A DNA stretch of 64,000 bases from an uncultured Ectothiorhodospiraceae bacterium (GTDB taxonomy: Bacteria; Pseudomonadota; Gammaproteobacteria; Nitrococcales; Nitrococcaceae). A program made the position numbers and the translations under genes. The notes under the pieces are model-generated. The model did not search any database and was not told where the DNA came from. It saw nothing but the letters and a program-made list of their open reading frames with translations. The stretch is from assembly GCA_913055565.1 (NCBI GenBank), contig CAJXKP010000012.1, forward strand, positions 1 through 64,000. The letters run 5' to 3'. Below are positions 60,040 to 64,000 of the stretch, in pieces; the stretch's first letter is position 1; each line of letters begins with the position of its first letter.

Positions 60040-60594
60040 TCAGCAGTTGAGATCACTGGGCTCGGCATTGCGCATGCGCCCCGAGATATTGAGGACGATG
60101 CCGCTGCCACTCAGCTCCGCATCCCCGCCCGGGCAGATGGAGAAGGTGCCCGCATAGCCCTGCGCGAAGCCGTCATCCTGAAACCGCACGCGGCTTGTTA
60201 GCAGGATGCCATTGCCGTCCAGGCTCAAGCTGTCGGCAATGGCCTCGTGCTCGCTGACGATCTCACCAGCATGGCTATCGCATTGCCCGTTCTGGTCCTT
60301 GTCCCGGCAGCCGCTCGCGCCATCGGGGATCGCCGCCGTGTACCAGCCCTGTTCCCAGCCGTTGTCGCTATCGCAGCCCTCCTGCGGGCTGCCATTGCAG
60401 ACGATAACCGGCGCCCGGCGCCTGATGGCCTCGAAGCGCGCATGGCGTAGCGAGGCCAGTAAGGCGTGCTGGGTTGATGTGATTTGCTGATCCCGAATGA
60501 GGTGGCCAATCGCGGGGCCGGCCAGTGTGACCAGAATAACGGCAACGGCGAGCGTGATGATGAGCTCAATGAGCGTAAATCCTTGACGTTCCAT
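60040..60594 (-). CDS. GspH/FimT-family pseudopilin
   Basis: 184 residues. Type III signal MERQG|FTLIELIITLAVAVILV with Glu5, then the conserved GHLIRDQQITSTQHALLASL and RHARFEAIRRRAPVIVCNGS; paired cysteines CNGS...GCDSD, CRDKD...QCDSH and a terminal LNC. Minor pilin that helps start the pilus fibre, periplasm-facing inner membrane. ATG 60594 is preferred. Divergent from the FimT-like gene at 61011. Confidence 0.85.
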   Translation of the reverse strand: MERQGFTLIELIITLAVAVILVTLAGPAIGHLIRDQQITSTQHALLASLRHARFEAIRRRAPVIVCNGSPQEGCDSDNGWEQGWYTAAIPDGASGCRDKDQNGQCDSHAGEIVSEHEAIADSLSLDGNGILLTSRVRFQDDGFAQGYAGTFSICPGGDAELSGSGIVLNISGRMRNAEPSDLNC

Positions 60595-61010
60595 GGGTCC
60601 CGGTGCTCCCTGCACATTCCCTTCTGAGCCGCGGGCTCGGACTCGCCCGCGCCGTCGAGCTGTGCCTTAAGGTAAACGAAAAGCCGGCCCCGAACCAATG
60701 CCAACACGCAAGCGTCCTGTTGGTAACCGAAATGGCGGGTTGCCTTGGGTTCCGGCCGGTATTGGCGCTACCGCATCGACCATTGGTAGCTTCCCCTATG
60801 TGACTTATCCCATGACGTGTTTAGTCAGAACCCTTATGACGAAATTAGTCACATAAGGGGGGCTCGTTTGGCCTTTGTGCCATTAACCTCGGCCTGGCAG
60901 GAATCCATAAGTATCTGATTATTAATTATTTAGATGGGCCATGTCTGGCCAGCCCGCTGGTTGGCATGATCGCTGCAGCACACAGATCGAGGGCATCAAC
61001 GGGGGGTTCA
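60595..61010. other. Divergent region between two FimT-like genes, with long inverted repeat
   Basis: About 415 bases. Inverted arms CCCCTATGTGACT (60793-60805) and AGTCACATAAGGGG (60847-60860) match except for one extra A, 41 bases apart. Additional TTAGTCA and CCCTTATGAC boxes stand between them. The AT-rich segment around 60910-60935 follows. It probably regulates the pilin operon to the right. Confidence 0.55.
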
Positions 61011-61601
61011 ATGAGACACACGGCTCTAGCACGCGCATCGGGTGCCGAAGCTAGCTACAGCGCCGCGCTGTGTGCGGGTTCGCGGGGCCGCATTCAGGGG
61101 CGCTACCGAGCCGGCTTCACCCTGATTGAGCTAATGATCGTGCTGGTCATCGCCGTCGTACTCGTCACGATCGCCGTGCCCGCGTTCAGTACCTTCCTCA
61201 ATAATCAGCGCGTTACGACGCAGGCCAATAACCTCGTGACCGCGATCCACCTGGCTCGTAGCGAGGCGGTTAAGCGCGGTGACGTCGTCGAGCTCTGCGC
61301 CTCGAGCGACGCGTCCAGCTGTAATAGCTCGGATTGGAGTCAGGGCTGGATCGTGCGCGAGCCAGGCGTCGGCGGCGATGTTATCCGCGTCTGGGGTAGC
61401 GTGCCGCAGCCCGGGCACCTCAACGCGAACGACACCAGCCTATCCGAGATTGAGTTCAACGCGTTGGGCGGCATCGAAGGCAGCGGCGATCACGAATTCG
61501 AGCTCTGGTTTGACGAATGTAGCGGTGCCGAAACGCGGCTGATCGAGTTAAATAAGTCCGGGCGTCCGAGCATGACGCGCAATAACGTCAACTGTGGTTG
61601 A
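61011..61601 (+). CDS. GspH/FimT-family pseudopilin (FimU-like)
   Basis: 196 residues. A long leader (about 35 residues) precedes the cleavage region RAG|FTLIELMIVLVIAVVL, with Glu5. Next are FSTFLNNQRVTTQANNLVTA and IHLARSEAVKRGDVVELCAS, typical of the family. Two cysteine pairs: CASSDASSC and C in FDECSG...NVNC. First gene of the minor pilin operon. The start at 61011 has GGGGGG close upstream. In pilV-W-X operons this position is held by fimU. Confidence 0.85.
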   Translation: MRHTALARASGAEASYSAALCAGSRGRIQGRYRAGFTLIELMIVLVIAVVLVTIAVPAFSTFLNNQRVTTQANNLVTAIHLARSEAVKRGDVVELCASSDASSCNSSDWSQGWIVREPGVGGDVIRVWGSVPQPGHLNANDTSLSEIEFNALGGIEGSGDHEFELWFDECSGAETRLIELNKSGRPSMTRNNVNCG

Positions 61602-61620
61602 ACGGATGGGGGCCATGAAT

Positions 61621-62100
61621 ATGCAACCGTCTATCTCTCGTCGCCCCGCCGATGGGTTCTCGCTGGTTGAGGTCCTGGTGACCTTAGTCATCACTGCCGT
61701 GGGCCTGCTCGGTCTGGCCGGTATGCAGAACCTATCCCTGAAGACGAGTTACGGCTCCTATCTGAGGACGAACGCGAACAATATGGCCTACGACATCGCG
61801 GACCGGATGCGTGCTAATCGCGACGCCGCGCTGGGCGGACGCTACAACATCGCCTTCGGTAATACCCCTGGCATTGGCGGTGTGGCCGGTAACGATCTCA
61901 AGGATTGGTTGGATGCCGTCGAGACAACACTGCCCGAGGGCGAGGCGAGTGTGACGGTCCAAAGCGATGGCCACGCCCGCGTGCGCATCCGTTGGCTGGA
62001 TAATCGCGACAAGTCGGAGAAGAGTAATGCGGATACCGGCAAGTCGGGGCCTGACATTGCTGATGAGCACAATGTGTTCAACCTGAGGACCCAATTATGA
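61621..62100 (+). CDS. pilV: Type IV pilus minor pilin PilV
   Basis: 159 residues. Prepilin cleavage DG|FSLVEVLVTLVITAVGLLGL with Glu5, then AGMQNLSLKTSYGSYLRTNA and NMAYDIADRMRANRDAA, the PilV pattern. GGGGG lies eight bases before 61621. In-frame alternatives at 61606 and 61615 are possible. The stop overlaps pilW. Confidence 0.9.
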   Translation: MQPSISRRPADGFSLVEVLVTLVITAVGLLGLAGMQNLSLKTSYGSYLRTNANNMAYDIADRMRANRDAALGGRYNIAFGNTPGIGGVAGNDLKDWLDAVETTLPEGEASVTVQSDGHARVRIRWLDNRDKSEKSNADTGKSGPDIADEHNVFNLRTQL

Positions 62101-63167
62101 TGCGCCATCGACCTTTGCCGACCACGGTGCGGTGCCGGCATCCGGCCGGCATGTCGATGATCGAGCTGCTGGTGGCCATGGCGATCGGTCTCATTCTGAC
62201 CGCTGGGATCGTCCAGATCTTTGTCGGCAGTAAGGAGACATATCGGTTTCAGGAGGCGCTCTCTCGTATTCAAGAGACGGGGCGGTACGCGACGCAGCGG
62301 GTCAGTCGGGACCTTCGAATGACTGGCTACCAGGGATGCGCCGGTGACGCCATGACCGTAACGGACCACCGCAGCTCGCCCAATCAGAGTTTCTCGGAGC
62401 AGTTCGGCGAGGGCATTAGGGGCTTCGCCGTGGGCGCTAATGGTCAACCGCCGGATAAGCCCGGAATCAAAGAAGTAAGCCCTGCACCGGATACCGAGGG
62501 ACTTAGGCTGAGCGTGATGCAGCCTACCGACGTTGAGTTCGAGGATAGTGATCCGCCAGCGCTCAAGCTGAAAGATGGCATCCGCGAGGAGTTCGAGAAG
62601 TGCGACGCGGTCTTTCTCGAGGACCGCGATTGTGGGTTCGGCAAGATGTTCATCTCGGGCTCGTCCAAGAACGCAGCCAATATGAATACCAACGGCACCG
62701 GCAGTTGCCCGACCGGTAACGAGAATATGAACCCGGGCAAGCTCGATGAGCCCTGGCCAAATATCGAGGGCGCGCGCGCCATGAAGGCGCGGCGGTTTAT
62801 CTATTTCGTTAAGGAAAACGATAACGGCGAGCCCGCGCTTTGGCTCTGGCAAGGCGACGGCGGCGGGAGCGGTGAATCCTTTGAATTAGTTGAGGGCGTA
62901 GAGGATCTCCACGTGGAGTACGGCATTGACGATGGCGGTGAAAAGGACGCCGTCGACCGCTACGAGACCGTCGGCGCGGTGGAAGATGATGAGTGGTCCG
63001 ACGTCGTCGCCGTGCGAGTGAGCTTTTTGGTTCGCAGCCGCGCCGAGAACGTGACGGATGAAGCGCAGACCGTGTCGTTTCCGCCCGGCACGGAGTACAC
63101 CGCGTCGGATCGGCGCCTGCGCCAGACATTTACCACCACCGTGGCCTTTCGGAATCGTATCCCATGA
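62097..63167 (+). CDS. pilW: Type IV pilus minor pilin PilW
   Basis: 356 residues. Cleavage PAG|MSMIELLVAMAIGLILTAGI with Glu5, QIFVGSKETYRFQEALSRIQ, ETGRYATQRVSRDLRMTGYQ and a C-terminal WSDVVAVRVSFLVRSRAENV, as in PilW. Its ATG overlaps pilV's stop and pilX's ATG overlaps its own stop; the three form one translationally coupled unit. Confidence 0.92.
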   Translation: MMRHRPLPTTVRCRHPAGMSMIELLVAMAIGLILTAGIVQIFVGSKETYRFQEALSRIQETGRYATQRVSRDLRMTGYQGCAGDAMTVTDHRSSPNQSFSEQFGEGIRGFAVGANGQPPDKPGIKEVSPAPDTEGLRLSVMQPTDVEFEDSDPPALKLKDGIREEFEKCDAVFLEDRDCGFGKMFISGSSKNAANMNTNGTGSCPTGNENMNPGKLDEPWPNIEGARAMKARRFIYFVKENDNGEPALWLWQGDGGGSGESFELVEGVEDLHVEYGIDDGGEKDAVDRYETVGAVEDDEWSDVVAVRVSFLVRSRAENVTDEAQTVSFPPGTEYTASDRRLRQTFTTTVAFRNRIP

Positions 63168-64000
63168 GCACAGTAAACCTCCTCGCATCGGGGCGGATGC
63201 CCCCTCGTCAGCATGGTATCGCGCTGGTTCTGTCGCTGGTTTTCCTGGTCGCGCTGACGTTGATTGGGATCACCAGTATGAAGACCTCCCTGCTCCAGGA
63301 ACGTATGTCGGGCAACATGCGCGACCGCAATGTGGCGTTTCAGTTCGCCGAAGAGGCGCTGCGGGACGCCGAGGGGCGGTTGGTGAAGGAGGATGTCTCC
63401 GCAAGCATCGACAGCCTCGCTGAGGTCTATGAACCGGACAACGCGCCTGAGCCACGAAGTATCGCCTGCGGCGACGAGACCCAAACCGTGACCCTGGATA
63501 ATTTCGAGGAATCCGATCTGGCCTCGTCCGCCCCGTGCTACTTCATCGAGGTGCTCGATGCCGAATTCGAGGGCAAACTGCAAGCGGGTGACCGAACCGG
63601 ACGGCCCGTGAGCCAGATGGCGGAGACGCTTTATCGGGTGACCGCGGTTGGCTTCGGCGCTAGCGAGGACTCGCGCGTTGTGCTGCAAACCGTCTCGGCC
63701 GGCGCCGGTGAGGATGAGAGCAGTGGCTCTAACGGCGGCGGCTCGGGCGATGAGGATGGTGATAACGACAACGGGAACAACGGGAACAACGGGAACGACG
63801 AGAACGACGAGAACGACGAGAACGACGAGAACGAGGAGAACGAGGAGAACGAGGAGAACGAGGAGAACGAGGAGAACGACGGGAACAACGGGAACAACGG
63901 GAATAACGGGAATAACGGGAATAACGGGAACGGCAACAACGGGAACGGCAACAACGGGAACGGCAACAACGGGAACGGCAACAACGGCCGCGGCAACGGC
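63164..64000 (+). CDS. pilX: Type IV pilus minor pilin PilX with low-complexity tail (3' end outside window)
   Basis: 279 codons visible. QHGIALVLSLVFLVALTLIG without Glu5 (as in GspK-like PilX), MKTSLLQERMSGNMRDRNVA, FQFAEEALRDAEGRLV, then a conserved region with CGDE and ASSAPCYFIEVLD. After about residue 185 comes a repetitive tail of Gly-Asn, Asp-Glu-Asn and Glu-Glu-Asn triplets that reaches the window end. pilY1 and pilE should follow. Confidence 0.88.
   Translation, partial: MSTVNLLASGRMPPRQHGIALVLSLVFLVALTLIGITSMKTSLLQERMSGNMRDRNVAFQFAEEALRDAEGRLVKEDVSASIDSLAEVYEPDNAPEPRSIACGDETQTVTLDNFEESDLASSAPCYFIEVLDAEFEGKLQAGDRTGRPVSQMAETLYRVTAVGFGASEDSRVVLQTVSAGAGEDESSGSNGGGSGDEDGDNDNGNNGNNGNDENDENDENDENEENEENEENEENEENDGNNGNNGNNGNNGNNGNGNNGNGNNGNGNNGNGNNGRGNG

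Follow-up and report, generated by a model that had tools for sequence, protein, structure and literature searches.

What is a long, strongly biased repeat doing at the end of a minor pilin? The question is raised by a pilX gene at the edge of a 64,000-nucleotide stretch of DNA (hereafter the window) from an uncultured Ectothiorhodospiraceae bacterium, whose product runs on past its C-terminal domain into a tail of Asn, Gly, Asp and Glu. The window lies on contig C12 (66,015 bases), one of the 84 contigs of a 2.7-Mb draft genome, and pilX is still open where it ends. A preliminary description of this DNA, which had identified the protein as PilX with a triplet tail, made its reading depend on the frame being maintained beyond this point. 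This is indeed the case: six further codons follow in frame before a TAA that ends at contig base 64021, which gives a protein of 285 residues (Table 1). A 370-residue open reading frame on the minus strand across pilX was set aside as a by-product of a stop-free GC-rich stretch.

The identification as PilX also holds, since the protein carries both Pfam PilX domains, with scores of 56.8 bits for the N-terminal (cut-off 25.5) and 41.6 bits for the C-terminal one (cut-off 27), and is encoded within a minor-pilin operon. An NCBIfam search gave no match for this PilX, and the nearest named matches are three Nitrincola contigs and one Luteimonas contig with 28–38 % identity. Position 5 of the mature protein is Leu, and Glu occupies this position in none of 51 aligned PilX sequences. 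According to a review, the subunit that caps the tip complex lacks Glu5 (PMC10191384), and another study assigns the cap role to PilX in V. cholerae and to ComGG in S. pneumoniae (PMC12040237). Judged by what these two sources say of the trait, the residue at position 5 would make the source PilX a putative capping minor pilin. The tip-complex model for Kingella, as given in the portion available, likewise places PilV, PilW and PilX at the top (PMC12607826). Only a single PilX_N match exists across the source genome, and hence no tail-less PilX copy was found that could substitute for this one.

The order of the genes around pilX reads fimU-pilV-pilW-pilX-pilY1-pilE, where fimU, pilV and pilW are recognised by their protein families and the downstream part is deduced. 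The gene downstream of pilX starts about 150 bases later and is cut off by the contig end. The N-terminal half of this presumed pilY1 found no match in a Pfam search; it aligns, in two Nitrincola contigs (L031 and L032), with the N-terminal part of the gene that follows pilX. Another contig of the source genome, C50, starts with a PF05567 C-terminal part that aligns further along the same Nitrincola region and precedes a PilE-like pilin. Since C12 and C50 align with successive parts of the Nitrincola gene, both contigs probably meet inside pilY1. At the left edge of C50 (L110, 1-140) the open frame aligns with PilY1 except for its first ~45 residues, as if the contig edge were misassembled or divergent. 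A second PilY1 with a PilE-like pilin is found on contig C33 (L111, 3585-7339), again cut by a contig end, and the genome holds no second PilX match. A further GspH-like pilin gene (60040-60615, minus strand) is divergent from the minor-pilin operon. The genome also encodes one PilQ and three PilT-family proteins, all above their cut-offs, which makes a pilus that extends and retracts plausible.

Table 1. Features of the minor-pilin operon and of the pilX tail, in window coordinates
Feature	Position	Strand	Basis
FimU/GspH-like minor pilin, first operon gene	60966..61601	+	PF12019 GspH, PF07963 N_methyl
PilV minor pilin	61594..62100	+	TIGR02523 type_IV_pilV, 80.7 bits, cut-off 52.2
PilW minor pilin	62097..63167	+	PF16074 PilW, E 2.4e-26
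pilX minor pilin	63164..64000	+	PF14341 residues 18-63, PF13681 residues 119-177; 279 of 285 codons inside window
PilX C-terminal domain, residues 119-177	63518..63694	+	PF13681; AlphaFold2 last strand to residue 179
C-terminal low-complexity tail, residues 178-279 in window (to 285 beyond)	63695..64000	+	translation, composition; coil in model
9-bp tandem array coding GNN, DEN, EEN, GNN	63768..63930	+	perfect-run scan, TRF
15-bp tandem array, 4.3 copies, GNGNN pentapeptides	63923..63987	+	perfect-run scan, TRF

At the DNA level the tail is a tandem structure, as first described and as both TRF and a scan for perfect runs attest. Five perfect period-9 runs (63768-63796, 63793-63834, 63827-63879, 63879-63903 and 63896-63930, of 29, 42, 53, 25 and 35 bases, respectively) are followed by a perfect period-15 run of 65 bases (63923-63987), while the remainder of the window contains only three perfect period-9 or period-15 runs of at least two units (19, 18 and 30 bases). 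The succession of GNN, DEN, EEN and again GNN blocks is as originally reported, and it is followed by a block of GNGNN pentapeptides. Of the 6- and 9-base units proposed, the latter is present; the former comes down to one run of 2.0 copies, and a 15-bp unit has to be added. Nor does the estimate of about 25 or more triplets stand: perfect runs account for ~18 triplets and ~4 pentapeptides, in the copy number as assembled in the draft genome.

The codons tell a similar story. At a lag of three residues, codons are identical in 52 of the 58 same-residue pairs between residues 202 and 285. The codon usage of the neighbouring genes predicts a mean of 29.6, and 52 was reached in none of 10,000 draws; if synonymous codons are instead shuffled within the tail, the expectation rises to 46.8, with 52 reached in 130 of 10,000 cases. 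As this second expectation is close to the observed value, the signal is mostly one of strong local codon choice, to which a weaker component of unit-by-unit copying is added. The tail repeats are not due to chance, and tandem duplication shows most plainly in the perfect runs of 53 and 65 bases. Since the length of every unit is divisible by three, a change in copy number would lengthen or shorten the tail but keep the frame, and would not switch the gene off. The phase-like variation previously suggested is accordingly not supported, and on/off phase variation was rejected for the in-frame arrays, whose periods are 9 and 15.

Could the array, or its copy number, simply be wrong? Several circumstances invite the suspicion: the genome is a draft in many pieces, the contig breaks off inside the presumed pilY1 after another ~2 kb, and the array extends over ~220 bp, more than a typical short read. 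However, the blocks differ from each other and carry distinguishing codons (an AAT block, GAC versus GAG), and the frame continues undisturbed to its stop ahead of the next operon gene. We therefore regard an assembly artefact as very improbable.

AlphaFold2 was run on the alignment of 51 PilX. The model contains a long helix (residues 18-75) and three strands (125-131, 156-164 and 171-179), followed by coil to the end; residues 180-285 have neither helix nor strand and the block mean pLDDT is 37-57 from residue 191 (mean pLDDT 69.2 and pTM 0.55 for the model overall). The PilX fold is thus predicted to end at residue 179 and the tail to be disordered, which agrees with the flexibility anticipated in the preliminary description. 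A Foldseek comparison of the model with the PDB gave no match at E up to 0.001, so the pilin fold is assigned from sequence families and predicted secondary structure. In Pfam searches no domain was detected in the tail, and at E values up to 0.1 the full protein has no family match besides the two of PilX. With a tail that is coil in the model and lacks a Pfam match, the protein was not classed as a modular pilin with a grafted folded domain. In this it differs from PilB and PilC of Streptococcus sanguinis, which resemble it in carrying extra material on a tip minor pilin but whose grafts are adhesive domains and not a disordered repeat, as described in the available parts of two papers (PMC10191384, PMC8179133).

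The 108 tail residues (178-285) comprise 43 Asn, 29 Gly, 17 Glu, 10 Asp, 5 Ser, 2 Ala and 2 Arg, and those from 202 to 285 comprise 41 Asn, 21 Gly, 14 Glu, 6 Asp and 2 Arg. The charge attributed to the tail from the outset is therefore real, with 27 acidic residues against 2 basic ones. Such a content of acidic residues would suit a module that specifically binds calcium or another metal and controls PilY1 or adhesion at the tip, and the PilY1 protein of Myxococcus is calcium-dependent according to the portion available of the corresponding paper (PMC8833165). Yet most of the repeat is uncharged Asn and Gly, the acidic residues being limited to the DEN and EEN blocks and to the junction preceding the repeat, and none of the known calcium-binding families in Pfam matched the tail at E up to 0.1. 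A dedicated metal-binding function accordingly appears improbable.

How unusual the tail is can be judged from other PilX proteins. Type IVa PilX (PF14341 plus PF13681) share with the source protein both domains, the place after pilW, the lack of Glu5 and a fold that ends at the last strand, but the 50 other aligned sequences continue for 2-15 residues beyond the alignment column of residue 177, compared to 108 in the source. With the core as query, matches were obtained in 27 of 59 related genomes, and with PF13681 in 26 of the 54 genomes of the order (own genome included in both cases). Twenty matches of the order, including the source, were followed to their stop codon, and the other 19 end 0-15 residues after the domain. 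No second genome of the source genus was found among the related genomes searched (the 59 related and the 54 of the order).

Within the class, matches occur in 138 of 369 genomes. We followed 52 of them to the stop, i.e., the best 30 plus all 22 others among the matches listed that have open frames of at least 235 residues, and 49 have 0-18 residues after the domain. Matches with open frames below 235 residues were read at the C-terminus where they lay in one of the loci analysed; as the shortest aligned PilX has 152 residues, a 100-residue tail would require a frame of ~250 residues. The other three (G169, G284 and G400) carry 338, 348 and 317 residues, respectively, whose composition differs from that of the source tail, being Met-rich in two and Cys-containing in one; G400 is below the cut-off for the PilX C-terminal domain. 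The Met-rich extensions, at loci L094 and L104 (G169 and G284), exceed 330 residues after a PilX domain in proteins that score above the cut-off for both PilX families.

In the phylum, matches were found in 43 of 398 genomes and 33 were followed to the stop; class and phylum samples partly overlap and their counts are not additive. Six genomes (G433, G442, G455, G481, G502 and G556) have 124-168 residues after the match, in which a short conserved beginning leads into a repeat linker, rich in Thr and Ser and variable in length, and then into a Cys-rich end. Two of these proteins were scanned; both have the PilX domains and no other family, and the Cys-rich end is without Pfam match. They resemble the source PilX by a long low-complexity tail in the same place after the core and by tandem repeats in the DNA, and differ from it by the Thr/Ser composition and the conserved Cys-rich terminal piece, the source tail having no terminal domain. 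The corresponding loci are L149 (G442), L152 (G433), L154 (G556), L158 (G502), L161 (G455) and L163 (G481), and a PilW-like frame lies upstream of pilX in the three that were inspected. In addition, G694 has 82 Ala/Gly-rich residues, G473 34 and G797 21, while 23 matches have 0-11. A match in G440 with 97 residues after it spans a stop codon; it is not a gene and was left out of the tail count.

Among the matches listed, no other PilX followed to the stop in the order, class and phylum samples has an Asn/Gly/Asp/Glu repeat tail. Since the tail occurs in a single genome among those examined, there is no conservation that would point to selection. The source tail is an uncommon, not a startling, PilX variant; more interesting as a lead is that unrelated extensions recur at this site of PilX.

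Our tentative preference, which falls short of confidence, is that an ordinary type IVa PilX, presumably the capping minor pilin of a tip complex, gained a 108-residue disordered tail past its last beta-strand, and that this tail may provide the pilus tip with a flexible anionic brush or spacer. The DNA pattern suggests that it was built through repeated in-frame tandem duplication of the 9-bp and 15-bp units. From the position of its homologues the tail would sit at the tip beside PilY1, where a hydrated, strongly negative and flexible segment might alter the contact between tip and surface, possibly also by bridging divalent cations; changes in copy number would tune its length with the frame intact. 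The PilX domains, the operon order, the missing Glu5, a core that folds next to a tail that does not, and duplication visible at the codon level all speak for a brush or spacer, as do the extensions, unrelated in kind, that other PilX carry at this position. Against it stand the restriction of the tail to one genome, the failure of calcium-binding families to match, and the fact that a repeat of stop-free units easily stays open.

Experimental data on a comparable tail add a further objection. The pneumococcal PilX/ComGG resembles the source protein in having a charged, extended C-terminal tail on a capping minor pilin, although its residues 101-137 are Lys/Glu-rich, in contrast to the 108-residue Asn/Gly/Asp/Glu tandem repeat found here. 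According to the part of the study available, deletion or neutralisation of the Lys-rich tail leaves transformation unaffected (PMC12040237). The dispensability of a tail on this homologous capping pilin also favours neutral growth, in which extension of pilX at its 3' end is tolerated and a small GNN/DEN seed was enlarged by replication slippage, with no selected function. We consider this explanation almost as likely as the brush or spacer. The near-identical codons of neighbouring units and the absence of the tail from all related genomes examined agree with it, but no stop interrupts some 108 strongly biased, acidic residues of a protein that is expected outside the cell, and the different long extensions seen in other PilX suggest that the site not only tolerates additions but is also put to use.

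A broader proposal is that low-complexity repeat tails have arisen repeatedly at the PilX C-terminus, independently in unrelated lineages, and serve as tunable brushes at the tip that determine how a pilus contacts a surface. The tails that would count are the Asn/Gly/Asp/Glu tail of the source, the Thr/Ser tails with Cys-rich end of six genomes, the Ala/Gly-rich one of a single genome and the Lys-rich one of pneumococcus. We hold this to be rather unlikely. In the available portions of the literature on low-complexity or tandem-repeat pilin tails (including PMC10374093 and PMC6821194), no such PilX tail was recognised. If the source tail does work as a brush or spacer, pilus tips could be retuned by in-frame repeat growth on one minor pilin, with neither new domains nor new genes. 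The tails, which form a natural series by composition and length, would then also allow the part played by the capping pilin in tip contact, next to that of PilY1, to be tested.

The GNN repeat is rare elsewhere too. A DNA pattern for three consecutive GNN triplets was detected in 2 of the 369 class genomes and in 3 of the 398 phylum genomes, the source being included in both counts. In G189 (L046, 454-2238) it belongs to a 594-residue protein whose central part holds about ten GNN repeats. This protein is encoded next to a pilin-like gene and found no match in a Pfam search; we take it to be prepilin-like from its sequence features. The protein with the pattern in G422 presumably resembles a TadG-type pilus protein, and that of G765, where the pattern lies on the C-terminal side, is assumed to resemble a FecR-type exported protein.
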